From a virus: 33,750 nucleotides of DNA. The stretch's first letter is position 1. Each line of letters starts with the position of its first letter. Below, one piece after another: positions 1 to 24,884 of the stretch. The stretch lies in IMG/VR virus record IMGVR_UViG_3300022187_006262, positions 1 to 33,750 of that record. One strand, 5' to 3'. The position numbers and the translations under genes are program-made. Under the pieces are notes generated by a model. That model saw only the letters and a list, made by a program, of their open reading frames with translations. It did no database searches and had not been told where the DNA came from.

Positions 1-1
1 G

Positions 2-256
2 GGCGGAGAGACTCAAGCAGATCTAACTAAAAAAGGCGCCGATGTTCTGGGTCTTCAGTACACTAATTTAGCTAAAGGTATTACTGATGTAGGCACCAAT
101 GCTGCGAATACTCGTAACGCACAAGTGCTAGCTCAAACCCAGGCCAACTTGGACATTGGTAAAAACCTTGCGTTACTTAGGGGCCAAGGTGAATTGGAAT
201 TTGCCAAGCGTCGCGATGCTCGCGGGGCCGCTCTTGGTGGCGGAGGCTTTGCGTGA
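2..256 (+). CDS. C-terminal end of an unidentified phage protein (5' truncated)
   Basis: An open frame enters from the left edge and ends at TGA 254-256. The visible 84 residues are rich in Ala, Gln, Asn and Leu, look helical, and finish with a glycine-rich tail (ALGGGGFA). The composition resembles internal virion or linker proteins, but I recognise no family. Its stop overlaps the GTG start of the next gene in a GTGA arrangement, so the two are probably translationally coupled and belong to the same rightward structural operon. The start lies outside the window. Confidence 0.7.
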   Translation, partial: GGETQADLTKKGADVLGLQYTNLAKGITDVGTNAANTRNAQVLAQTQANLDIGKNLALLRGQGELEFAKRRDARGAALGGGGFA

Positions 257-783
257 TCAAATCGGCGATAGGTGATTCAACCACGGTTGCCGCGTGGTTA
301 GCTTCGCTTGACGCGTCAAACAAAGATGCGTTCGTCCATTACGCGAAGAATACAACGAGCGACATTGAAGCGTATTTATACGCTAGATTCTTGCGACCGG
401 GGTACACAGGTAGTATCGCCGATCTGACCGCGTGGATCCAGGAGAAGTTCCCTAAAGAAGATCTACGCAAAGTATTACTTCGTGAAATTGATGACTTACA
501 AATTGACATCAGAAATGTACGGGACATGGTTCAAAATCAGATGCTCGACCCCGCATCCGCTGCGACAAAAATTTCAGCGGTTCAAAAAGAACTTCGTAGC
601 CACATTCAGGCTGTTAGATCTATTGCGGACGGTCTAGACCGCCGTGGTTTGATCCTTGCCGGCGCAGATCGCACCATTCGCGAACTGATCAATACCCTCG
701 ACGGGCAGCCTGGTCTTCAGCAATTAGTTGACGAGGCCGCCGTCTTAGTTTGGACTACTATTGAGAACGAAGAACGCGCTTAA
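253..783 (+). CDS. Hypothetical helical phage protein, 176 aa
   Basis: The GTG start at 253 overlaps the upstream stop (GTGA), which supports this start. The 176-residue product appears almost entirely alpha-helical, with a charged, heptad-like stretch around residues 70-130 that could form a coiled coil. There is no signal peptide, membrane segment or catalytic motif. It closes a rightward operon and converges tail to tail with the minus-strand GH130-like gene; the stops overlap by four bases. I do not recognise the family. A virion or assembly role is only a guess from its neighbour. Confidence 0.65.
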   Translation: MIKSAIGDSTTVAAWLASLDASNKDAFVHYAKNTTSDIEAYLYARFLRPGYTGSIADLTAWIQEKFPKEDLRKVLLREIDDLQIDIRNVRDMVQNQMLDPASAATKISAVQKELRSHIQAVRSIADGLDRRGLILAGADRTIRELINTLDGQPGLQQLVDEAAVLVWTTIENEERA

Positions 784-1862
784 TCGGCTTTGCGCATACG
801 GCGCATGATGTTTTGTAGCTTTGTTCTGAAGATGCCCATAAAAGCATCATTGACGCCGAGAGACATCACAAGTTCATCTCCTTCCAGAAATGCACCGAAG
901 GGCAAAATTACTGCAGGTTGATTTGAAACTGGATTGCCGCAAACGTCCGTCCATTCGATAACGCGATCGTTTAAAGAACCTGTAAATAAGGGTTCTTCCG
1001 TGAAGTAAGTTACTTCTTTGAAGTTTTTATCAACCAGATAAGCCCCTACATGGTAAATAAGGTAAGGTTTACCGTCGTCTGTGCATACCATGTGCTTCCA
1101 GTGATAAAAAACAAGGTAGCAATACCCCAAATTAATAGGGGCGGTGGAGTTAAAAGTAGCTGCACCTCCTGTAGCTTTTTCTAAAATTTTTGTGTCGAGT
1201 TCAATAGAAGGTCCGTTCTCTCTTTCGACGATTAAAGGCCGCGTGGAGTACAAACAGTTCAGCTCATCGTTAGCGGTAAAGAAAGCCCAGTTTTTCTCCG
1301 GTACTCCCACGGTGTGATTTTTTCCGATAGGCGGAATAGCTGCACTTACCGCTTCAAATAAATCGTTAACCCAGCAGACAACGACTTTTGGTTGCGAAAA
1401 AAGTTTTTTGGTATTTGAGTCGTATTTACTGGCGTATGTAGAAGCTACAAATTGAACATACAGGTTTGAGTCCGGCCCGGTAAATAGCCTGGGATCTTCA
1501 TAGCTAAGCCTGTGTTTTTTAGATCGAAGTTTTTTAGTGCCGATGACAGAAGCATCATTGCTTCCAAGCATGGCTATATAAATTTCGTTGGGTTGGTTAT
1601 TTAGATAAAAGTACTTATTGTCGTACCTGAAGCCAAATGCTTCGGGTTGAGATCGCCAAGCTATATAAGTTTTTCCCAACCTGTTAATTATTGAAGGACT
1701 AAAGTTAGCGACACTGTTCTTAGGTAAACCTTTTACGATTCGCGTGAATTTACCGCCTAACGCTTCAGCTTGTTCGTAAACAGTCGGCACGCCTTTGTCA
1801 GGACGCTTCGAAGGGAAAATAACGTCGCTGTAAAGGTGAAAGTAGCGATTTTGAGACTGCAT
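780..1862 (-). CDS. GH130-like five-bladed beta-propeller glycosidase/phosphorylase-fold protein
   Basis: The 360-residue product has the blade pattern of GH130/GH43-type propellers: NFSPSI near residue 53, YEDPRLF at 121-127, PEKNWAFF at 188-195, an aromatic GYCYLVFYHWK strand at 246-256 and MSLGVNDAFMGI near 333. GH130 enzymes phosphorolyse or hydrolyse mannosides; EDPR and EKNW are typical landmarks of that fold. The frame stays open upstream to 1952, but that part lies inside the glycosyltransferase gene. I therefore start at ATG 1862, two bases after the upstream stop. It forms a two-gene minus-strand unit with the GT4 gene, suggesting work on the same glycan. The substrate is unknown. 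Confidence 0.68.
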   Translation of the reverse strand: MQSQNRYFHLYSDVIFPSKRPDKGVPTVYEQAEALGGKFTRIVKGLPKNSVANFSPSIINRLGKTYIAWRSQPEAFGFRYDNKYFYLNNQPNEIYIAMLGSNDASVIGTKKLRSKKHRLSYEDPRLFTGPDSNLYVQFVASTYASKYDSNTKKLFSQPKVVVCWVNDLFEAVSAAIPPIGKNHTVGVPEKNWAFFTANDELNCLYSTRPLIVERENGPSIELDTKILEKATGGAATFNSTAPINLGYCYLVFYHWKHMVCTDDGKPYLIYHVGAYLVDKNFKEVTYFTEEPLFTGSLNDRVIEWTDVCGNPVSNQPAVILPFGAFLEGDELVMSLGVNDAFMGIFRTKLQNIMRRMRKAD

Positions 1863-1864
1863 GA

Positions 1865-3037
1865 TCAAACTCCTAGATCTTGGATAGCGGCATTGAATCC
1901 TGCGCTGATTGACTCCCAGCGATACTCGGGTCGTTGAGTCACAGAGTAGCACGCGTTAGCTACTTCATCATAGCTTTGTTTATCGTAGTACAGATCGTCT
2001 AAAATTTTCGCCGCTTTGGTCGTATCGATAAGACCGCGCTCAACCCCTAAGTCCTTATCCACAACCCATGTGGAAATGGGGATAAGTTCAGCGGCATCCT
2101 TCCAGATATCCTGACACACGGTGTGGTGCGGGACGACCTGAGGCTTCATACACCCGGCGTGTTCGAAACTGACAAGACCCCAGCCCTCTCCGTCGGATGT
2201 ATTTATCCCCACGTCGCAAGCGTTGTAGATCGTATTTAAAAGTTCATCCGGCGGCGCATCGATATAGTTGATATTGTTTGCGGTAAGAACAAGTCTATTA
2301 GTTTCGTCTAGATTACGTCGAGTCATTTCGTGTTTAAACAAAGGTAATACGTCCCAACCCAGGTCTTTTGTACCCATATGTAAATACAACATCGCGTCGG
2401 GTTTATCTACTGCAAATTCCGCGAATGTTTTGATTGTCAGATCTATACGTTTTCTGGGTTGATTCCTATTACCGTTAAATACAATAAATTTATCTAATGG
2501 CAATCCTAGGCGACTACGTGCTTCTGCTGTATCCATCGGGTAAAAACGACCGACATCGACACCGTGGGGGAGCACCGCTAACCGGGGCGCATCTGCCCCG
2601 TACTTCATCAGTCTTTCTGCCGAGGGTACGGTAAAAGTAATTCCCAAATCCCAGTGTTTAATATGCCGGAGCATATCTGGGTAATAGCTTTCGCTATCCA
2701 CCGGGAAGTAAGCAATGAATTTAAATTTGAGCTTGTCTTTTAAAAACTGGCAGCGTTCCCAAAATTGGTTAACAATCCAGATATCGTTAAGACAGATTAC
2801 AACGTCTGGTTTTTCTTTATGTAAGATTTCGGGCAGCCTGCCGATCCCAAAACGATCGTTACTGCCGGCTGGACATGCCGGGTAAACTTTGTAAGGCAGG
2901 TTGTGAGGATCTCCTGTGTAGTTGATGCCCATCACCACGATCTCATGGCTTTCTTTTAGGCTATCAAGTACACTGTGAGTGACTCTGGCAAAACCTGTAT
3001 TACTACACGCATCTCCGTACCAAAGAACTTTCGCCAT
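1865..3037 (-). CDS. GT4-type (GT-B fold) glycosyltransferase
   Basis: A 390-residue glycosyltransferase. The N-terminal Rossmann half begins MAKVLWYGDACSNTGFAR. The C-terminal half carries LPHGVD (156-161), the NGNRNQPRKR loop (188-197), where GT4 enzymes contact the donor phosphates, and DGEGWGLVSFEHAGC (282-296), equivalent to the donor-binding E-x7-E region. Donor and acceptor cannot be read from sequence. An in-frame TTG at 3061 would add eight residues; ATG 3037 is preferred because the Rossmann strand begins right there. It diverges from terminase across about 55 bp and is followed at once by the GH130-like gene. Likely cytoplasmic, modifying a virion component or a host glycan. Confidence 0.82.
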   Translation of the reverse strand: MAKVLWYGDACSNTGFARVTHSVLDSLKESHEIVVMGINYTGDPHNLPYKVYPACPAGSNDRFGIGRLPEILHKEKPDVVICLNDIWIVNQFWERCQFLKDKLKFKFIAYFPVDSESYYPDMLRHIKHWDLGITFTVPSAERLMKYGADAPRLAVLPHGVDVGRFYPMDTAEARSRLGLPLDKFIVFNGNRNQPRKRIDLTIKTFAEFAVDKPDAMLYLHMGTKDLGWDVLPLFKHEMTRRNLDETNRLVLTANNINYIDAPPDELLNTIYNACDVGINTSDGEGWGLVSFEHAGCMKPQVVPHHTVCQDIWKDAAELIPISTWVVDKDLGVERGLIDTTKAAKILDDLYYDKQSYDEVANACYSVTQRPEYRWESISAGFNAAIQDLGV

Positions 3038-3091
3038 GAAGAATTTGAAAGTCGAGTACAATCAATATAACAGTGCTATCAGCTTATAGAC

Positions 3092-4615
3092 ATGCCTAGT
3101 CGGGAAACTTTTGCGTATCGCCGTGGGGCACAGCTACGAGCTCTTAAAGCAATAGAAAATAACGACAGTAGCGCTACAGAAACTATTTACACCAAGGCTT
3201 CAAATGACTTCCATACTTTCTGTACTATACTAGATAAACCTCCGGCTCCTCACATGCTTGAATGGCATGAGTATTTGGTGACTAATGAGAGTAATAAGTA
3301 TCTTATAGATATAGCAGGACCTAACTTAGATATTCTGGCGCCCAGGGGTTCTGCTAAGTCCACTGTGCTCAATATGTTTACGGCTTGGTGTATTGGTCGC
3401 CATACAGCCGCTAAAAGACCGCTTCAGATTATTTATGTAAGTTACAACATCGCCACGGCCATACCTAAATCACGGATTATTCGTCAGATTGTCGACTCCT
3501 CTGAGTTTCGTAAGATTTTTCCTACGTGCCGGCTTAAACCGGGTATGCAATCTGACATTGGTTGGTCGATTGACTACGATTATGCCGGAATTCCTCGTCT
3601 TGGTGATGAAGAATTTACGCTAAGGGCAGCTGGTTTGCGAGGTAGTATTACCAGTAAACGTGCTCACTTGGTGTTAATTGATGACCCTATAAAATCTTCA
3701 GCGGACATCAAAAATCCTACGATTCGGGAAGAGATGAATAATAACTGGAGTAGCGTTATCGCTCCCATTGTTTTTGAAGGTGGCCGTTCAATTTGTTTGG
3801 GCACTCGCTTCCATCCTTTAGACATCCATAAAACGATGTTTGTACCCGATAAGGGATGGAAACAAGTTACGCAAGAAGCTCTGACTTATGACGACAAAGG
3901 ACAACCTAAAAGCTATTGGCAGACTCAGTGGTCTGTAGATTATTTGCTTCAACAAAAAGAACTAGATCCTGTAGCTTTTTGTTTTCAGTACCAGCAACAA
4001 CCCGTGGCGACATCTGATTTAGTCGTGTCGCCTGATTTGCTTATCAAAGGAGATGTAGCTACCGAATTTGATAGTTTGGCGCTGGGCATTGATCTTTCAG
4101 CGAGTAAAAACGAGACATCGGACTACACCGCTTTTGTTTTAAGCGGTCGTTTGAAAGATAAATATTACATTGTCGATGCTCACCAATGTCGTTCCATTGG
4201 AAATCTCGAAAAAATAGATCTTTTGTGCGACATGTTGCTTGAGTGGGGCATTTTAACTAAGTACAACGGAGAGTATCAACCGACTTATTCCACTGTGACC
4301 TTGGTGGTTGAGTCTGTCGCTTATCAAGCCAGCCTTGCAGCAGACCTTCGAAGAGTGCTCCTTAACGAAAGAGGTCTTAGCAATTTACATATTCATGAAG
4401 TGAAGGGCTTCCGGGGCGATAAAATTGCTCGTTTTAGAGGTACTTTGGGTTTACTTGAGAATCAAAAAGTCATTTTTAATAAGTACAGAAAGTTCGACGC
4501 TCTTTTTGAACAGCTTATTAACGTCGGCGCTACAGCTCATGACGATTTACTTGACGCCTACACGTGGGTAATTACATTTTTACAGCGCCGAGGTAGTTTT
4601 TCTGTTGAGTACTGA
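3092..4615 (+). CDS. terL: Terminase large subunit (packaging ATPase/nuclease)
   Basis: The 507-residue protein has both motor halves. The ATPase has a Walker A-like APRGSAKST (83-91), Walker B HLVLIDDP ending in two Asp (about 192-199) and a coupling-type LGTRFHP segment (236-242). The RNase H-like nuclease has the acidic triad spacing: Asp334 in LGIDLSASK, Glu407 in VVES and Asp484/485 in TAHDDLLDAY. TerL docks on the portal, translocates DNA into the prohead and cuts the concatemer. Length is normal for the family. ATG 3092 gives a sensible N terminus. I see no small terminase subunit nearby; one of the unidentified small genes could fill that role. Genes encoding glycosyltransferases lie on both sides, which is unusual. 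Confidence 0.95.
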   Translation: MPSRETFAYRRGAQLRALKAIENNDSSATETIYTKASNDFHTFCTILDKPPAPHMLEWHEYLVTNESNKYLIDIAGPNLDILAPRGSAKSTVLNMFTAWCIGRHTAAKRPLQIIYVSYNIATAIPKSRIIRQIVDSSEFRKIFPTCRLKPGMQSDIGWSIDYDYAGIPRLGDEEFTLRAAGLRGSITSKRAHLVLIDDPIKSSADIKNPTIREEMNNNWSSVIAPIVFEGGRSICLGTRFHPLDIHKTMFVPDKGWKQVTQEALTYDDKGQPKSYWQTQWSVDYLLQQKELDPVAFCFQYQQQPVATSDLVVSPDLLIKGDVATEFDSLALGIDLSASKNETSDYTAFVLSGRLKDKYYIVDAHQCRSIGNLEKIDLLCDMLLEWGILTKYNGEYQPTYSTVTLVVESVAYQASLAADLRRVLLNERGLSNLHIHEVKGFRGDKIARFRGTLGLLENQKVIFNKYRKFDALFEQLINVGATAHDDLLDAYTWVITFLQRRGSFSVEY

Positions 4616-4616
4616 T

Positions 4617-5498
4617 ATGGAAACAGACAAAAAGCTCTGGGTGGCCATTACAGCCCACGAGCCAATGGCTCGATTGGACACTCTTTTTAAAGTTTTAAAA
4701 CTTTACACAGAGTACAAGCTGAAAGTCTCGGTTTTTTTGTTTGTTAACTACGAAGCTCAGGAGCAAATCCCTCAGCTATCGGCTCTTTTGCGGCCTTTTT
4801 TAGAGCAAATCGATATAGAAATCGTGGTAGCGAGTCCCGAGCATACCGGCTGGTGGCTTACTTGGGCGCATAAACCAAATTTGACTGTAGCTTGTATGCG
4901 CAAAGAGTACGACTATTTTATATATCAAGAAAATGACATGCTTTTAACTTGGGATCACTTCAAATACTGGATGCGCTGGAAGCCTAGATTGGCTGAGGTA
5001 GGCTTAGAGCCGGGATTTATACGGTATGAACTGTTCGGAGGTAAAAAAGTACCTTTTGATAACCACTATCGATACTCTTTAACCGAAAAAACTCCAAATG
5101 TTTGGAGCGAGCGTGGGTTTACCGTCGCAAAACAGCTCGTAGTAGACCACGAAATACGGTTTTTTGCGAGTTTGGGCAGTCCTTATTACGCCGCTATGAT
5201 TTTGGATGCCGATGATGCGATTAAATACGTAAAAAGTACGAGTATGGACCCGATGCGGAGTATAGAGCTTGTTTCCTTCCGAAATTGGCCTTTAGCTGAC
5301 CGTAGTTCTATGGGTTTAGCGTTTGAAACACCTCCTTCCGGCTATGAACACCGGCGATGTGTCCCAGTAGTCGAAAAAAACGGAATTTACATGCCGCATG
5401 ACTGTTGTTTGTTGCAACATGACGACATTAAGTACTCGACGGAGCTGAGCAATAAGGTTGGCAACCTGATTACTTGCGATACAATGCTTACGCTTTAG
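4617..5498 (+). CDS. Putative glycosyltransferase-like protein (GT-A style)
   Basis: A 293-residue soluble protein starting one base after the terminase stop; an in-frame TTG at 4605 would add four residues and overlap terminase. The N terminus (KKLWVAITAHEPMARLDTLF) reads like a GT-A nucleotide-binding strand and loop. YDYFIYQENDMLLTWDHF near residues 98-115 places an acidic pair where a DxD metal-binding motif would sit. HTGWWLTWAHK (76-86) and a late GYEHRRCVPV segment are aromatic or charged pocket candidates. The family assignment is by pattern only; a related sugar-modifying enzyme is the alternative. The context of GT4, GH130-like and GT17 genes within 8 kb supports a glycan role. Confidence 0.5.
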   Translation: METDKKLWVAITAHEPMARLDTLFKVLKLYTEYKLKVSVFLFVNYEAQEQIPQLSALLRPFLEQIDIEIVVASPEHTGWWLTWAHKPNLTVACMRKEYDYFIYQENDMLLTWDHFKYWMRWKPRLAEVGLEPGFIRYELFGGKKVPFDNHYRYSLTEKTPNVWSERGFTVAKQLVVDHEIRFFASLGSPYYAAMILDADDAIKYVKSTSMDPMRSIELVSFRNWPLADRSSMGLAFETPPSGYEHRRCVPVVEKNGIYMPHDCCLLQHDDIKYSTELSNKVGNLITCDTMLTL

Positions 5499-5505
5499 TA
5501 TTTTT

Positions 5506-5733
5506 ATGGACAACGTCAATCATCCTTCGCATTATACGTCTGGTGCTATTGAGTGCATAGATGCCATTAAAGAACAAGTCGGTAATGAGGGGTTTCAGGG
5601 CTACTGCCACGGCAATATCGCTAAATACCTCTGGAGGTACAAGCACAAAAACGGTGTCGAGGACTTGAAGAAGGCCGCGTGGTACTTACAGTGTTTGATC
5701 GGTGAGTTAGAATTGACTCAAGATAACAACTGA
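5506..5733 (+). CDS. DUF3310 / SaV-like small phage protein
   Basis: The 75-residue product has the family signature: an opening NHPSHY, then GAIECIDAI, HGNIAKYLWRYKHKNG and VEDLKKAAWYLQ. This is the DUF3310 domain common in tailed phages, often annotated as a nucleotide kinase by analogy with T7 gp1.7; that activity cannot be confirmed here. Length is typical for the stand-alone form. It starts seven bases after the upstream gene and is followed after three bases by a GTG-start gene, in a tight rightward operon. Confidence 0.88.
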   Translation: MDNVNHPSHYTSGAIECIDAIKEQVGNEGFQGYCHGNIAKYLWRYKHKNGVEDLKKAAWYLQCLIGELELTQDNN

Positions 5734-5736
5734 CTT

Positions 5737-6018
5737 GTGGACGTAAGAGCATTTGGGTCTGTTTACGGCCAGGTAGCGTCTCTGCCTTATTCAAGTGGAT
5801 TTACTTGGGTACCCGCCGATGGAACTAAATATTTTCCAGCGTGTAGGGGTTTGTTTATTCAAAATGGCGGAGGCAGTAACAAAAGTCTTTTAGTAGAATT
5901 TACAGATGCTCCAGGACAGGTATGTGAAAACAATCACTTGAACGGTGATTTTCTCTGTCCCCTCTCTTGTACAGCTCTTGTAAGTGGTAACGTAACTAAT
6001 GTCGTAGTCTTGTACTGA
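5737..6018 (+). CDS. Small beta-rich protein, possible head decoration
   Basis: The 93-residue product starts at GTG 5737, three bases after the previous stop. The pattern ACRGLFIQNGGG, followed by LLVEFTDAPG and a closing TNVVVLY strand, resembles the small all-beta proteins near head genes of many tailed phages, where an aromatic strand, a glycine turn and a terminal IVALY-like strand recur. Four cysteines occur in the second half, two of them in LCPLSC. The stop overlaps the next start (TGATG), indicating coupling. A decoration role is inferred from pattern and neighbourhood only. Confidence 0.5.
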   Translation: MDVRAFGSVYGQVASLPYSSGFTWVPADGTKYFPACRGLFIQNGGGSNKSLLVEFTDAPGQVCENNHLNGDFLCPLSCTALVSGNVTNVVVLY

Positions 6019-6212
6019 TGGCTAGCGACCTTTCCGGCTTAGTTACGTACCTGCAGGGTGGCAAAAGTCTGCGTGAAAGTGCCGGCATGGATGCCGATCA
6101 AATTATCAATGCTTTACGTAAAGGAGCAGCCGCGCAAAGCGGTCCGTTAGATCTTTTTAAAGACGCCTTGTTAGCTAGAGCAGCTGAAATAAAAGCCCTA
6201 GGCTCTATTTGA
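6018..6212 (+). CDS. Hypothetical small protein, 64 aa
   Basis: Starts at ATG 6018, overlapping the upstream stop by one base. The 64 residues look helical (SLRESAGMDADQIINALRK, then LFKDALLARAAEIKAL), mildly amphipathic, with no cysteines or membrane segment. I do not recognise the family. Its place in the short-gene run between terminase and portal fits a small assembly or packaging accessory; a small terminase subunit is conceivable, but 64 residues is short for one. Confidence 0.6.
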   Translation: MASDLSGLVTYLQGGKSLRESAGMDADQIINALRKGAAAQSGPLDLFKDALLARAAEIKALGSI

Positions 6213-6230
6213 CATCGTTATAATTAAGTC

Positions 6231-6554
6231 ATGGCTGACCCTTTTATCGAAGCTGGTGATTTTTTCACCAAAGCATTTAATGCTCAGGAGTTAGCATCGC
6301 GTCGTCAGCGTACGGCTCAACGTCCTGCGATGCGTAGCGATAGTTATGAAAATCAAGTCAGCGAGCAACCGCTAAATGCACCGATTCCTCCTCAATATGG
6401 TCCCTACGGAACTTACGAGGATGAGTTTACGCCGGAAGAAGATCCCACGGAATCTATGAAAGCTAAGCTTTTGCGAAAGGCAGCCGCCAAGCGTGGGCCT
6501 CGGACCGGTGTTCCTGTATATCCCGGCGATGGCGCCGTGACTCCCAGTGTCTGA
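6231..6554 (+). CDS. Hypothetical Pro/Arg-rich protein, 107 aa
   Basis: ATG 6231 is preceded closely by a TATAAT hexamer (6219-6224), 6 bp away; this is too near for a leadered transcript and may be chance. The product begins with a helical segment (DPFIEAGDFFTKAFNAQELA), followed by a disordered-looking Pro, Tyr, Glu and Arg-rich tail ending PVYPGDGAVTPSV. It overlaps the next gene by eight bases. No family recognised; the polar, low-order composition suits a small virion-associated or scaffold accessory, without proof. Confidence 0.55.
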   Translation: MADPFIEAGDFFTKAFNAQELASRRQRTAQRPAMRSDSYENQVSEQPLNAPIPPQYGPYGTYEDEFTPEEDPTESMKAKLLRKAAAKRGPRTGVPVYPGDGAVTPSV

Positions 6555-6777
6555 AGTCGCGAAAAAGCGGGACCCAAAGAAATGGGCAGCCGCTAAAGCT
6601 AAAGCTCGCAAGCGTCTTGGCGGACATTCGGCCCGCGCCATGCAGTTGGCCGTTAAATACTACAAAGATGCGGGGGGCGGATACGAAGGTAAAAAATCAA
6701 GCAAAAATAAATTAAGTCGTTGGGGAAAAGAAGATTGGCAAACTCGTGAAGAATACGAAAAGAGCAAAAGTTCTTAG
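6547..6777 (+). CDS. DUF5872-like N-terminal half, small basic protein
   Basis: Starts at GTG 6547, overlapping the previous gene. The 76 residues are basic and carry HSARAMQLAVKYYKDAGGGY, followed by KLSRWGKEDWQTREEY. From memory this matches the first half of the DUF5872-type domain of phage and giant-virus proteins (an SARKAQLA-like helix, a GGGYxGKKS turn and a W-x-x-E-x-W strand). In those proteins an ERYLP segment follows in the same chain; here that segment is the next gene in another frame. Function unknown; the basic charge suggests nucleic-acid or capsid contact. Confidence 0.6.
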   Translation: MSEVAKKRDPKKWAAAKAKARKRLGGHSARAMQLAVKYYKDAGGGYEGKKSSKNKLSRWGKEDWQTREEYEKSKSS

Positions 6778-6779
6778 TT

Positions 6780-6998
6780 ATGGCTGATTTAGCGCGAGAA
6801 AAAGGGCGAACTGAGCGTTATCTGCCTAAAGAAGCGTGGGCCTCAATGTCCGACGAGGAGCGTAAAGCTACGGATGAAAAGAAAAAGAGGGCCACGTCGG
6901 GTAACAAACCCGTAAATACTCAGGTGCCGAATACTGAAAAAGCAAAAGAAGCACGTCGTCGCGCCTCCGCTTATATTAAAAGTAAAGGTAAAAAATGA
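6780..6998 (+). CDS. DUF5872-like C-terminal half, small basic protein
   Basis: Starts two bases after the previous stop. The 72 residues contain REKGRTERYLPKEAW, MSDEERKATDEKKKR and a VPNTEKAKEARRRASAYI tail, which correspond to the second half of the DUF5872-type domain as I remember it. With the preceding gene it would make up one complete domain, so the pair looks like a split version of a single protein. The tail is very basic. The stop overlaps the start of the following gene (ATGATGG). Confidence 0.6.
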   Translation: MADLAREKGRTERYLPKEAWASMSDEERKATDEKKKRATSGNKPVNTQVPNTEKAKEARRRASAYIKSKGKK

Positions 6999-7249
6999 TG
7001 GCTAAGATTCGACTCGCCGGAGAAATATTCTCCGGGTACAACCAACCTCGTCGTGATTCTGACGGAGGTAAAAAATTTGCAGTCGCAGCAAAAGAAGGTG
7101 ATCAGGTTCGATTAGTTCGTTTTGGTGATCCAAATATGACGATTAAGAAACACATACCCGAACGTCGTGAAAGCTTTAGAGCTCGTCATAATTGCGATAC
7201 CCCTGGAAGTAAGTTAAAAGCACGCTACTGGAGTTGTAAAAAGTGGTAG
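6995..7249 (+). CDS. Conserved small phage protein with C-terminal RHNCDTPG...YWSC motif
   Basis: 84 residues, starting at ATG 6995 inside the previous stop (a second ATG at 6998 is possible). The body KKFAVAAKEGDQVRLVRFG and the ending RESFRARHNCDTPG ... ARYWSCKKW form a recurring phage signature in which two cysteines and a histidine could bind a metal. I recall this ending in phage proteins near portal and head genes, but no biochemical role. It is the last of the short-gene run and is followed by a 67-bp gap before the GT17 gene. Confidence 0.65.
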   Translation: MMAKIRLAGEIFSGYNQPRRDSDGGKKFAVAAKEGDQVRLVRFGDPNMTIKKHIPERRESFRARHNCDTPGSKLKARYWSCKKW

Positions 7250-7316
7250 CATTTTAAAGTTTTTAGTTGTTATCTTGTAAATCCTGCTAAACTATGCAGG
7301 CCCTCTCAGCATCCTC

Positions 7317-8159
7317 ATGCTGTTCGATTGTTTTTTGTACTTCAATGAACGCGAGCTCCTAGAGCTCCGCGTGGAAATGCTTAAGGATATTGTCGATGGT
7401 TTTATTATTACAGACGCCGATAGGACTTTTAAAGGAGACGAAAAGCCTTTTAGTTGCGTCGACACGATTCGCGAGTTAGGACTTCCGGAAGACAAAATTC
7501 AGGTTCTCCACGTCGAACTGCCGCCTCCGGATATTGCCCCAAATCCTTGGGTAAGAGAGTACTCGCAACGTGATGCGTTGGCGGTCGGTATGCGCATGAC
7601 ACCGCCCGATTCGGCGTTTTTCTTTAGTGATGTAGACGAAATTCCTAAGCCCTCTGCGCTTTTAGAAGCTGTAAAAAAAGCTAAAGAGGATCCTTCTCGT
7701 TGTGTGCGTTTGTCTATGCCCATGATGTACGGCCGGGCGGATCTCCGCGTGATGAGCCCTGATGGAGATAAAACAAAGCCGCCAACTAACTGGACTTGCG
7801 GCACCGTGGTCCTACATGACCACCTGGATAAAACCTTGTCTGAGATACGTCGTAACCCTAATGACCTTGTCGTGGGAGACTGTGACGCAGGGTGGCACTT
7901 TAGCTGGATGGGCGGTCCTGATCGGCTTAAACGCAAACTAACATCCTTCTCGCACTGTTATGACGATATTCCAAATGCCCACGCTCCCGCGTACAGTGAG
8001 GAAATGCTTGATTATTTAGATAACTACAAAGCTCAAGCGGGCGGTACGGATCCACTCGGCCGTAAAGATCATCTGCTTACCTCGTATCCGCACGATCTTT
8101 TACCGCCAGAATTGTTTAAACTGGAACGAGTGAAGGAGTACCTTCTTCCGGACTCCTGA
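7317..8159 (+). CDS. GT17-family glycosyltransferase (beta-1,4-GlcNAc-transferase-like)
   Basis: The 280-residue protein begins LFDCFLYFNERELLELR, the hallmark opening of GT17 (Pfam Glyco_transf_17). It has ITDADRTFKG near 31-40, the metal/donor DVDEIP at 105-110 and AGWHFSWMGG at 191-200, all conserved landmarks. Animal GT17 is MGAT3, which adds bisecting N-acetylglucosamine; bacterial and phage relatives have unknown acceptors. It has no membrane anchor, so it acts in the cytoplasm. Placed directly before the portal gene, it could decorate a virion protein or make a precursor for the GT4 and GT-A-like enzymes upstream. Start ATG 7317 fits the family's N terminus exactly. Confidence 0.88.
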   Translation: MLFDCFLYFNERELLELRVEMLKDIVDGFIITDADRTFKGDEKPFSCVDTIRELGLPEDKIQVLHVELPPPDIAPNPWVREYSQRDALAVGMRMTPPDSAFFFSDVDEIPKPSALLEAVKKAKEDPSRCVRLSMPMMYGRADLRVMSPDGDKTKPPTNWTCGTVVLHDHLDKTLSEIRRNPNDLVVGDCDAGWHFSWMGGPDRLKRKLTSFSHCYDDIPNAHAPAYSEEMLDYLDNYKAQAGGTDPLGRKDHLLTSYPHDLLPPELFKLERVKEYLLPDS

Positions 8160-20333: not shown

Positions 20334-20893
20334 TGACATCAACACCGGTTAATCTTTTAAGCCTACGTTCTAATTTAAATTCGGATCGTCCGAAGCCAGC
20401 AACACTTCAGTTAGGTCAATCTGCTGTTAATTACGGTGCTTCGGATCCAGGTGTCTATATAGAAGACTCAGGAGGATCGATTCGAAAAATTGGTCCAAAT
20501 CATTACGGTGCCGCAGCTCCAAACTCGACACCGGCTGGTCAAACAGGAAATTCCGTGGGCGAGACGTGGGTAGACAGCAGTGCCGTTACTTATTATTTAA
20601 AAGTTTGGACGGGCTCTACTTGGCAAATTATTGGCTCTGCCTTTGCGGATACAGCTACTACTGCTAATACTGCTAATACCGCAACGTTTGCTTCATCCGC
20701 TGCGTCTGCAGTTATTGCCTCTGGAAGCTTAGTTGCTAATTCTTCATTAATTGCTTCGGGGTGTGTTGAAGCTTCAGGCGTGCCTATAACAACAGGTTTG
20801 CCAGCCAGTTCGCCGGAAGGAACTGTGATGTATCAAGCAGCTGCGCCTTCCGGTTTATATATTTATGTTGGCGGTCAATGGGTGCAGGTTTAA
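20333..20893 (+). CDS. Tail-fibre-like protein with LKVW/YIYV terminal motifs
   Basis: 186 residues. The start overlaps the preceding stop by one base, with a GGAGGAG ribosome site before it. The opening SLRSNLNSDRPKPATLQLGQ and DPGVYIEDSGGSIRKIGP are characteristic of phage fibre or collar proteins, followed by GETWVDSSAVTYYLKVWTGS, an Ala/Thr-rich middle and a final GLYIYVGGQWVQV. The GETWVD and closing YVGGQW elements match the LWY-type units in the 28197 gene. Likely a receptor-facing or adhesin-associated virion protein. It converges with the Dps-like gene; stops overlap by four bases. Confidence 0.65.
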   Translation: MTSTPVNLLSLRSNLNSDRPKPATLQLGQSAVNYGASDPGVYIEDSGGSIRKIGPNHYGAAAPNSTPAGQTGNSVGETWVDSSAVTYYLKVWTGSTWQIIGSAFADTATTANTANTATFASSAASAVIASGSLVANSSLIASGCVEASGVPITTGLPASSPEGTVMYQAAAPSGLYIYVGGQWVQV

Positions 20894-21423
20894 CCCCGAA
20901 GTGTGCTTTTAATGAACCACGCCGATTTAAAAGAATCTCTAACTAAATCCGCTGCGTAGTTTTCGACGTCAGGAGCTTGTACTTTCCGTGCCGTGTCTAC
21001 CAACTCTTTTGATTTCATACCAAAGTCTTCTAAATTAGTTAAATAAGTTATGAGCATTTCACGAGTTTCATAAGATTTGCAAGGTTTAAAACCTTTATAT
21101 GCGCCTAGCAAACCTTTTTGACACATAGGCATAAGTGTGTCCATTGTGCGGACAAACTCAGCCAAACTATCAAAATGATCTATATGCAGTTCATATTCTT
21201 TAGTTAGGAATTTATGAAGGGGGAGAAAAAGAGGCCCCTCTACGTTTAAGTGTATTAGGTGGGCTTGGACGTACAACTGATGAGAATACGAAGCCAGAGC
21301 CACCAAATTCAAAAGTAAATCTTGAAGTTGGGGCTCCGGTTCGACCGAGACTACGCGCTCTTCGATCTCCGTGGGCATGAGCTCGGAAGCCGGAGTCGAA
21401 GCAAAAGTCTCGGTATAGGTCAT
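20890..21423 (-). CDS. Dps/ferritin-like protein
   Basis: The 177-residue product matches the Dps (DNA-binding protein from starved cells) signature. HLNVEGPLFLPLHKFL then IDHFDSLAE aligns without gaps to E. coli Dps HWNMRGANFIAVHEMLD...IDHLDTMAE. His58, His70, Asp85 and Glu89 take the places of ferroxidase residues His51, His63, Asp78 and Glu82; Thr74 replaces Asp67. The C-terminal SAWFIKSTL resembles the Dps end. Family members form 12-mers that oxidise iron with peroxide and may coat DNA. The first 30 residues are a disordered acidic extension. It lies two bases after the HTH gene, so both form one minus-strand unit, diverging from NblA. Confidence 0.72.
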   Translation of the reverse strand: MTYTETFASTPASELMPTEIEERVVSVEPEPQLQDLLLNLVALASYSHQLYVQAHLIHLNVEGPLFLPLHKFLTKEYELHIDHFDSLAEFVRTMDTLMPMCQKGLLGAYKGFKPCKSYETREMLITYLTNLEDFGMKSKELVDTARKVQAPDVENYAADLVRDSFKSAWFIKSTLRG

Positions 21424-21425
21424 GA

Positions 21426-21698
21426 TTAAACGTCAGCGAAGGCTACAGAGCCCTCTTCAGCATCGTTATCTACTGTAGCGGAAGAATCAGCACCGTTCAG
21501 ATACTTCTGAAGAGCGTCCTTGTTGATGCGGTACAGGGATTTAGCACCAGAAGGCTGGAGATTTACATAAATGTCCTTTGGCCAACCGCCGGCGTTATTA
21601 GATTCGGTCAGTGCGATGCGCTTGCGCACGAAGCCGCTAGAGCAGTTTAAAAATTCTGCGGTCTCCGCGATCGTCAGGAGGGTCTTGCCTTCAAACAT
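21426..21698 (-). CDS. Excisionase/MerR-type helix-turn-helix DNA-binding protein
   Basis: 90 residues. IAETAEFLNCSSGFVRKR at about 10-27 is the helix-turn-helix of the HTH_17/excisionase family, and SLYRINKDALQKYL at 54-67 is the paired wing/helix typical of these domains. The tail (SSATVDNDAEEG) is acidic and disordered. Such proteins act as transcription regulators or excisionases; no integrase is seen, so a regulator or DNA-architecture role is likelier. It starts at ATG 21698 and precedes the Dps-like gene by two bases; NblA lies divergently 170 bp away and could be controlled from the shared intergenic region. Confidence 0.75.
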   Translation of the reverse strand: MFEGKTLLTIAETAEFLNCSSGFVRKRIALTESNNAGGWPKDIYVNLQPSGAKSLYRINKDALQKYLNGADSSATVDNDAEEGSVAFADV

Positions 21699-21866: not shown

Positions 21867-22124
21867 GTGGCAACCTCAAACTTTGACGGAGACATGAGAA
21901 ATCTTCAGTGCGGCTTGACGCTAGAAGATGAATTTGTGCTGACTCGCATCCGAGCTAAAGCTAAATCTATAAATAATAGAACTGACAGAGATCAATATTT
22001 TTGGATGACTATTTTAAAGTTAATGTGTAAAGAGAGAGCGTATAAAACAGTTATGCAACAAATAGGAGTTTCAGTAGAAACAAATGTTCTCATGTTCGAA
22101 GAATCCGAAGATTCGGTAGAATGA
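21867..22124 (+). CDS. nblA: NblA-like phycobilisome degradation adaptor
   Basis: A 52-residue core starting LTLEDEFVLTRIRAKAK and ending CKERAYKTVMQQIGV has the length and pattern of NblA (L-S/T-L-E-x-E-F-x-x-R, a second helix, then M-x-x-E-x-x-Y-K). NblA dimers bind phycobiliproteins and bring the Clp protease, dismantling the light-harvesting antenna; NblA genes are known in several cyanophages. I start at GTG 21867 (85 aa); the frame is open to TTG 21813, and ATG 21894 is the shortest option. The C-terminal tail (MFEESEDSVE) is an acidic extension. It lies just before the endolysin and opposite the HTH/Dps-like pair. This is the clearest host marker in the window. Confidence 0.72.
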   Translation: MATSNFDGDMRNLQCGLTLEDEFVLTRIRAKAKSINNRTDRDQYFWMTILKLMCKERAYKTVMQQIGVSVETNVLMFEESEDSVE

Positions 22125-22142: not shown

Positions 22143-23456
22143 ATGTCGTTAGACAGCCCACTGACGCGTCAATGGTTGGATCTGATTGCGTACGCTGAGG
22201 GCACAGACAGCTCTCGTCGTGGCGGTGGTTATGACGTCATGTTCGGAGGAGGTCGTTTTCAAGATTTTTCAAAGCACCCTGATCTTGTTGTAAGAACTAA
22301 AGGTTTTCCTAAAGGTAGTGCTGCCGCCGGACGTTATCAATTTATGCCCGGTACGTATGCCGGTGCTCAGAAAGCGCTCGGGTTACAAAGTTTTAGTCCG
22401 CAGGAACAAGATCTTGCAGCTATTTATTTAATGAAGCAGCGTGGAGTAGACCCCGCAAGAGATCCTATTACTCCCCAAACGATCGCTAAGCTCGCGCCAG
22501 AATGGGCTAGTCTTCCCACGTTGCAAGGGAAAAGCTTTTACAACCAACCGGTTAAGTCTTTAAGTGAACTACAAGGGTTTCTTCAAAAACCAAGCGGAGG
22601 CGTTTCTTATGACCCTGGTCAGACGGCAAACGCTCCCTCTATAAATTTACCTAGATATGATTTTCAAGGTGCTTTAAAAAATATTGTCACTCAGTACGCT
22701 TTATCAGGAGCTGCGCAGCCGACTTCGGGAGATACTCAAAAAGCACAAGTTTATTTACAAGCTGCCGAGGCAATTAAGGCAGACCCTGATAAATACGGAG
22801 AAGAGGGGCAGGCTTTAGCTGAACAGTATAAGTACAGAGCTAACGAGGCGATGTTTTTAGGGGGGTCTCCTGGCGGTAACGACCCTTCTAAGTTAATTAT
22901 GGATATTCTGGGAGCTAAAATAAATCAAAAAGCGTTTAATACAAGTCAAGCTAATCAAGAAAACTTAATTAACTCTCAACTCGCTTCTTCTGCGCCTTCT
23001 ACTCCTTCACCTGTTACTTCTTCTGCTTTAGAAGTACCTACTTCAGTTGTTTACGAACAACCTAGTGGACAACCTGGAGTTGACCTTTATTTCCCCAGTA
23101 AACGTTTTCCCGCAGTTTTAGGCGGCGTGGTCAAGGATGTCAGCAGAGAAGGAGGCTATGGAAATTATGTTGTTATAGAATCATTAGATCCATTAACTAA
23201 CAAAAAAGTCGACGTGCTTTATGGGCACTTGGCGGATAATAGTGTTCAAGTTCGACCAGGACAACAGGTTGCGCCTGGTCAAATTATTGGTCAACAAGGC
23301 GGCACAGGAAATGTCCGTTCCGCTGATGGAACTATCGCAAGCGTTGATTTCTTGGCTCCCCGAGGTCCGGGTAGTCGCGACATGACTCCATATAGTAATT
23401 TTGATCGACTACGTCGACAGGTTGTCGCTGATTTTCAAGGTGGGGGTAAACGCTGA
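22143..23456 (+). CDS. Lambda R-type endolysin domain fused to degenerate M23-like domain
   Basis: 437 residues. The N terminus closely follows lambda R endolysin (GH104 lytic transglycosylase): Glu19 in LIAYAEGTD at the catalytic position, GYDVMFGGGRFQDFSKHP, AAGRYQFMPGT (61-71) and EWASLP (120-125). Residues 160-300 are a helical, Gln/Ser-rich linker. Residues 309-407 have the M23/LytM layout (QPGVDLYF, YGHLADN, PGQQVAPGQIIGQQGGTG), but the first zinc His is Gln310 and the HxH pair is SVD (400-402), so peptidase activity is doubtful. It probably cleaves peptidoglycan during lysis or DNA entry. No membrane anchor or holin gene was recognised nearby. Confidence 0.8.
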   Translation: MSLDSPLTRQWLDLIAYAEGTDSSRRGGGYDVMFGGGRFQDFSKHPDLVVRTKGFPKGSAAAGRYQFMPGTYAGAQKALGLQSFSPQEQDLAAIYLMKQRGVDPARDPITPQTIAKLAPEWASLPTLQGKSFYNQPVKSLSELQGFLQKPSGGVSYDPGQTANAPSINLPRYDFQGALKNIVTQYALSGAAQPTSGDTQKAQVYLQAAEAIKADPDKYGEEGQALAEQYKYRANEAMFLGGSPGGNDPSKLIMDILGAKINQKAFNTSQANQENLINSQLASSAPSTPSPVTSSALEVPTSVVYEQPSGQPGVDLYFPSKRFPAVLGGVVKDVSREGGYGNYVVIESLDPLTNKKVDVLYGHLADNSVQVRPGQQVAPGQIIGQQGGTGNVRSADGTIASVDFLAPRGPGSRDMTPYSNFDRLRRQVVADFQGGGKR

Positions 23457-24048: not shown

Positions 24049-24334
24049 ACAAATCCCGGTAGGGAAACATGAGCGAAAAGTAGCTTTTCATACGCAAGCT
24101 CCTTTTGCTAAGCACGATTACCGTTACCGCCAGCGTGCCGACATTAGAATGGCCGGCACTGTTTGGAGTGAAAGTCCTCAAGAAAGAGGGCAACGGTTAT
24201 CGCGAGAGTACTTACGGAAAAAAATGCGTGACAATCCAGTCGGCTTAGGGTTCGGCGAAAACGATAATTTTGGTCCCGATAACTCTTACGATACCAAACA
24301 GCCGATTAAATATACACACGCCCGAGAGTACTAA
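24041..24334 (+). CDS. Hypothetical basic protein, 97 aa
   Basis: Starts at ATG 24041 inside the previous gene. The 97 residues are basic and polar, with EQIPVGKHERKVAFH, YRYRQRADIRMAG and a charged helix (ERGQRLSREYLRKKMRDN), ending in a flexible acidic-aromatic tail. No membrane or enzyme motif is visible. It converges with the Dam-like gene, whose 3' end overlaps this one by 29 bases, so the two transcripts must collide or overlap unless a hidden terminator acts. Function unknown. Confidence 0.58.
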   Translation: MSEQIPVGKHERKVAFHTQAPFAKHDYRYRQRADIRMAGTVWSESPQERGQRLSREYLRKKMRDNPVGLGFGENDNFGPDNSYDTKQPIKYTHAREY

Positions 24335-24884
24335 AAAGAGCACTAAACTCAAGTATTTTTCTGTCTGCTTTATGAGGAGACGGAAAATAATAAATAAAAC
24401 CGTAAATTTTATTAGTGTTTATTTTATTGAATTCCTTATCGTCACTCCTTAGCTTTGGGTGTTCTTTCAAAATGCACATCGGCAAATCTAACCCTATTTT
24501 TTGAGCTGCGATTAGTGCTACATCAGTCGATGTCAGAAATAAAATTCCTTCCTCAAACTCTCCTAGGGTATATTTCCGCAGCATTTCTTCCATCCAAACT
24601 CTTTGAGCAGACTTGACGAATCTTTTCTTTTTTGTCCACAGGCTTCTGTCAGGAGGCTGTTCTATTCCAGTTAAAAGATCCCGTGGCGGGTAAAGATAAA
24701 CACACTTAGCCTTCCAATCTTGTTTTAAACCCTGATTTTCCGGACAAAAATATCGATTGGCTTGGATAAATGTATTCGCGTTGTGACTACTTGCGGGGTC
24801 TAAGTCTATTTCACCATCGAAAAAAGTCGTAACCGTAGCTATGACATTTATCGGCGAAACAAAATCAATGGTGTTAATCGGCAC
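24306..24884 (-). CDS. Phage Dam-family DNA N6-adenine methylase-like protein
   Basis: 192 residues from GTG 24884. IDLDPASSHNAN (26-37), RYFCPENQGLKQDW (44-57) and the later pattern of IGLDLPMCILKEHP and YGFIYYFPS match the phage DNA adenine-methylase family (PF05869). The catalytic motif IV, normally NPPY, reads YPPR at 65-68, so both outer residues are changed and methylation may be lost. The GTG start overlaps the upstream gene by 11 bases. As last gene of the minus-strand operon it may bind DNA or protect it; a substrate-binding role without catalysis is an alternative. Confidence 0.7.
   Translation of the reverse strand: MPINTIDFVSPINVIATVTTFFDGEIDLDPASSHNANTFIQANRYFCPENQGLKQDWKAKCVYLYPPRDLLTGIEQPPDRSLWTKKKRFVKSAQRVWMEEMLRKYTLGEFEEGILFLTSTDVALIAAQKIGLDLPMCILKEHPKLRSDDKEFNKINTNKIYGFIYYFPSPHKADRKILEFSALFSTLGRVYI

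Follow-up and report, generated by a model that had tools for sequence, protein, structure and literature searches.

The gene at positions 21867 to 22124 of the window (the whole stretch of DNA analysed here, a 33,750-base record from an uncultured virus) encodes a remote, divergent phage homologue of NblA, carried by phages of the S-EIV1 kind, that probably acts as an antenna-degradation adaptor. We call its product type I, and use types II and III for two other NblA-like families found in related phages. The function is assigned on the grounds that type I keeps both the N-terminal motif LTLEDEF and a second helix of the NblA pattern. This was also the reading of the initial annotation; homology tests and a fold prediction speak for it, and against it speak the failure of the window protein, when scanned alone, to match the NblA profile PF04485, the variable positions near the end of helix 2, and the failure of a type I profile to recover cyanobacterial NblA.

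The type I gene and its surroundings

Besides the gene itself the window carries genes for terminase, capsid and a portal-like protein. A comparison with 50,697 phage records gave a single relative of the portal-like protein, in Synechococcus phage S-EIV1 (47.7% identity), and S-EIV1, which infects Synechococcus, is the nearest cultured phage of the window; the hosts of phages with type I are probably picocyanobacteria. The features around the gene are as follows.

20890..21423, minus strand: ferritin-like (Dps-type) protein (PF00210, E 3.4e-14; 52 of 52 loci)
21426..21698, minus strand: HTH (excisionase-like) protein, divergent neighbour (HTH_17, E 2.8e-5, below cut-off; phrog_2907, E 0.0018; 52 of 52 loci)
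21867..22124, plus strand: NblA-like protein, type I (85 aa; GTG start, TGA stop; alternative start ATG 21894)
21915..21935, plus strand: N-terminal motif LTLEDEF, residues 17-23 (7 of 7 positions invariant in 29 distinct relatives)
22068..22121, plus strand: C-terminal extension VSVETNVLMFEESEDSVE (net charge -6; low AlphaFold2 confidence)
22143..23456, plus strand: endolysin with a lysozyme-like N-terminal part and an M23 peptidase C-terminal part (phrog_90 endolysin, E 7.8e-32; Peptidase_M23, E 1.2e-10)

Type I is a conserved protein gene and no chance open reading frame, since it has 52 relatives in IMG/VR viral contigs (50-84% identity), 22 columns are invariant in an alignment of 29 distinct type I sequences (the window's own included), and its dN/dS is low. 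Purifying selection is strong: those close pairs with the window that lend themselves to measurement give a dN/dS of about 0.04-0.11; synonymous versus non-synonymous change is 0.72 versus 0.078 in one such pair and 1.29 versus 0.051 in another. Translation may start at GTG 21867, which is retained among the nearest relatives of the window protein, or at ATG 21894, also a possible start since Met is conserved at this position (residue 10) within the protein's clade; the choice of start codon leaves the NblA-like core unaffected. The strings LTLEDEF, KERAYK and QQIGV, to which the initial annotation had drawn attention, all occur letter for letter in the 85-residue translation. The acidic C-terminal extension that it described is likewise real and conserved in type I relatives, and is probably disordered, to judge from the model. 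Its placing of the gene beside the endolysin was also correct: 18 bases lie between the type I stop and the endolysin reading frame, and this position is conserved in relatives.

The endolysin is the next gene 3' of type I and on the same strand, an adjacency found by BLAST in 50 of 52 loci, and the order ferritin-like (minus), HTH (minus), NblA-like (plus), endolysin (plus) recurs in 52, 52, 52 and 50 of the 52 loci, respectively. Type I is the first gene of a rightward lysis stretch, a position which suggests late expression. A promoter and terminator scan gave no more signals than shuffles did, and so is no guide to timing; neither an Rfam nor a tRNA scan had any hit in the window.

Several other features of the window and its relatives deserve mention in their own right. 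S-EIV1 likewise has a DNA-binding ferritin-like gene (AHV82153.1). The window reading frame 6995-7249 (plus strand, 84 aa) has a homologue directly upstream of type I in 42 related loci (BLAST) and in the window stands before the portal-like gene: a small gene of changed place. Genes at 780-1952 (minus), 1865-3061 (minus) and 7317-8159 (plus) look glycosyltransferase-like or sugar-related from a reading of their translations, and are scattered among the virion genes; 24306-24884 (minus) weakly matches a phage Dam-type DNA N-6-adenine methyltransferase (E 7.4e-4, below cut-off).

Relationship of type I to NblA

The initial annotation proposed a search against PF04485 as a check. Scanned alone, the window protein gave no PF04485 match at E <= 1, one half of what the initial annotation had named as grounds for refutation, and no other Pfam match and no PHROG match; its family does match, as 23 of the 29 type I relatives hit PF04485 NblA (best E 0.0012, 24,736 models), and the other Pfam families each match a single type I member and none recurs. 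All type I members fall under the curated PF04485 cut-off of 25 bits, the genes in contigs scoring 14-19 bits. The sole NCBIfam match of the window protein is also NblA, weakly (E 0.11), with residues 16-63 aligned to positions 9-55 of the 56-position profile.

More sensitive comparisons uphold the claim of NblA homology by several independent routes. An HMM of cyanobacterial NblA, built from cyanobacterial NblA loci taken from a separate scan, scores the window protein at 17.2 bits, against 13.4 for the best of 20,000 of its own shuffles and 5.1 for the best of 1,639 decoy short reading frames from the same contigs. Profile-profile alignment of type I with cyanobacterial NblA by hhalign covers 49 columns without gaps (probability 74%, E 2.8e-5); none of 400 column permutations attains this score, and a reversed profile scores 7.9 versus 27.7. 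Homology to NblA is thus statistically supported across the whole domain and, judged by sequence, type I is an NblA homologue lying outside PF04485 as that family is drawn today.

In a column-by-column alignment LTLEDEF, which lies in the most conserved part of type I, falls on L-S-L-E-Q-Q-F of cyanobacterial NblA; the L-x-L-E-Q-x-F motif of the ClpC side is represented by an invariant LTLEDEF, but with Asp in place of Gln. Work by Bienert and colleagues in 2006 is said to give Leu-51 and Lys-53 of Anabaena NblA as the C-terminal phycobiliprotein-binding residues. At the Leu-51 position type I has Val or another hydrophobic residue, and near the C-terminal end of helix 2, at the Lys position, it varies among Q, N, K, S, A and D.

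The two-helix fold, another suggested check, is predicted by AlphaFold2 for the monomer as a helix-loop-helix with a short first and a long second helix:

21921..21968, plus strand: predicted helix 1, residues 19-34 (AlphaFold2 model; start matches the control NblA relative to the invariant Leu)
21978..22064, plus strand: predicted helix 2, residues 38-66, with KERAYKTVM (AlphaFold2 model; 29 residues, as in the control NblA)

Block confidence in this monomer prediction is 82-93 over most of the type I core. A true NblA run as a control gave helices at 14-28 and 32-60, in the same register: in both models helix 1 starts two residues past the invariant Leu, the loop has 3 residues and the second helix 29. 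With the type I model as query, Foldseek returned nothing significant, and no NblA, from PDB or from viral models; since the true NblA control model searched against PDB returned nothing significant either, this silence is uninformative.

Type I looks phage-specific, since a genome-contig scan found no cellular copies and its profile gave only short, weak matches in 194 cyanobacterial genomes, without recovering cyanobacterial NblA; the NblA structure 1OJH was found by that profile only at E 1.1. In a tblastn search of the phage collection, type I had no cultured relative. An apparent match in phage S-SCSM1 was rejected as chance, as it lies inside a virion lectin gene and has stops in frame.

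Further NblA-like genes and the proposed function

A PF04485 search across the whole contigs of relatives brought out type II; type III is the NblA-like family of S-EIV1 and its relatives.

Type II (A3), a second NblA-like gene unlike type I; examples L192 (G005 contig, 1-8000), L191 (G006 contig, 60000-67428) and L193 (G022 contig, 58000-66000)
Type III (A4), KJ410740.1, 73902-74222 (L123): S-EIV1 'hypothetical protein' AHV82245.1 (PF04485, 17.4 bits; poly-Asp tail)

One form of type II, in two near-identical contigs, scores 25.4 bits and so passes the Pfam cut-off. Types I and II occur together in 12 contigs, by our reading about eight lineages, and in 11 of these a distance of 21-34 kb separates type I from the type II gene downstream of it; in the twelfth, the 79.7-kb contig L030, the two are 25.6 kb apart on the assumption that the contig is circular. 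Of the contigs that extend 26.3 kb or more downstream of type I, a single one, L052 (30.1 kb), is without type II, whose place there could be farther out, as at 34 kb in L016 and L017. We place type II in the replication module, since it sits among genes for an SSB-like protein (E 2.9e-5, below cut-off), a D5-type primase/helicase (D5_N, E 3.7e-9) and others; it is coded on the strand opposite to the SSB and primase genes. As the window ends 11.6 kb 3' of type I, type II should fall outside it; the window's own phage presumably has the gene about 25 kb downstream of 21867, past the contig end. Type III, which is acidic-tailed, occurs in S-EIV1 and its relatives, and in S-EIV1 directly follows the lysozyme gene; type I is absent from S-EIV1 and from the four type III contigs searched.

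In the accepted view, NblA binds ClpC through a conserved N-terminal motif and phycobiliproteins through a C-terminal motif (PMC4103541), and delivers antenna to the Clp protease (PMC7966870). By homology, type I would be a small helix-loop-helix adaptor whose C-terminal half binds phycobilisome proteins and whose conserved N-terminal motif binds the ClpC chaperone; the host Clp protease would then degrade the antenna, freeing amino acids and reducing the light input. Expression of type I late in infection would complement that of the replication-module type II. We put forward more tentatively the idea that S-EIV1-like phages degrade the antenna in two stages, or against two sets of targets, by means of two unlike NblA adaptors whose genes sit in the replication module and at the start of the lysis module, respectively, with type I a late, retargeted Clp adaptor.

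The main rival to antenna degradation, though an unlikely one, is that type I is an NblA-fold ClpC adaptor in which LTLEDEF docking is kept and the altered helix 2 and acidic tail select a host or phage target other than phycobiliproteins. The N-terminal motif is indeed the most conserved part of the protein while helix 2 departs from NblA, the conserved tail is absent from NblA, and another NblA-like gene is already present in related genomes; however, R/K-E-x-x-Y-x-x-[VL]-[ML], the pattern of helix 2, remains compatible with NblA and no other target is indicated. Less probable still is that types I and II cooperate as a heterodimer and not at different times, for which Synechocystis NblA1/NblA2, an essential heterodimer (Baier et al. 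2014, as cited in PMC7966870), is a precedent; the two genes do co-occur in all contigs that reach far enough downstream, except L052, but they lie 21-34 kb apart in modules that usually differ in their time of expression, and there is barely any similarity between the families (hhalign E 0.08). Finally, we disfavour as highly improbable the idea of a lysis-module protein (holin, antiholin or endolysin regulator) with a chance likeness to NblA, since, although nearly all related loci have type I immediately ahead of the endolysin and the S-EIV1 NblA-type gene follows a lysozyme, the NblA similarity is far above shuffles and decoys and the window protein has no transmembrane stretch (maximum 19-residue KD 0.52), on which ground we reject a holin.

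Antenna degradation by type I would add a further cyanophage lineage to those known to control the light-harvesting antenna. That lineage is widespread and recorded without nblA (PMC5332604, where Table 2 lists hli and ptoX for S-EIV1 gOTU G238, and not nblA), yet carries NblA-type genes, often two per genome, that escape standard profile annotation. Phage nblA is already known, divergent marine forms included; we found in the open literature no description of the type I family and its occurrence in the S-EIV1 lineage, and no paper on two unlike NblA-type genes in one phage genome. The two-stage or two-target scheme is directly testable with two small genes.

Comparison with known NblA proteins

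Cyanobacterial NblA (PF04485; 1OJH, 2QDO, 2Q8V, 3CS5) shares with type I a 49-column ungapped alignment, the opening L-[ST]-L-E-x-x-F and a helix-loop-helix of equal lengths, predicted in the case of type I. It differs in that type I is only about 14% identical, has E-D in the motif where NblA has E-Q, carries N-terminal and acidic C-terminal extensions, and falls under the Pfam cut-off. Phage NblA is expressed during infection and is active when heterologously expressed (PMC9602691; PMC5780444). The freshwater phages Ma-LMM01 and PaV-LD resemble the window in having a phage-borne NblA, whose activity is reported in work cited in PMC9602691 and PMC5780444; unlike type I, their proteins are near-standard (45-52 bits; hhalign E 1e-10 to 1e-14), with one copy per record by profile. 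Marine cyanomyoviruses of the S-SCSM1/S-TIM5 kind (QFG06501.1; PMC9602691) also have a divergent NblA, and the S-SCSM1 copy likewise lies beside virion genes, but this type has no detectable sequence relation to type I and is much farther from cyanobacterial NblA (hhalign E 0.042 versus 2.8e-5). Type III of S-EIV1, AHV82245.1, is a separate sequence family and never shares a contig with type I in the records searched, but it belongs to the same phage lineage, has an NblA-type core and an acidic tail, and adjoins a lysozyme gene.
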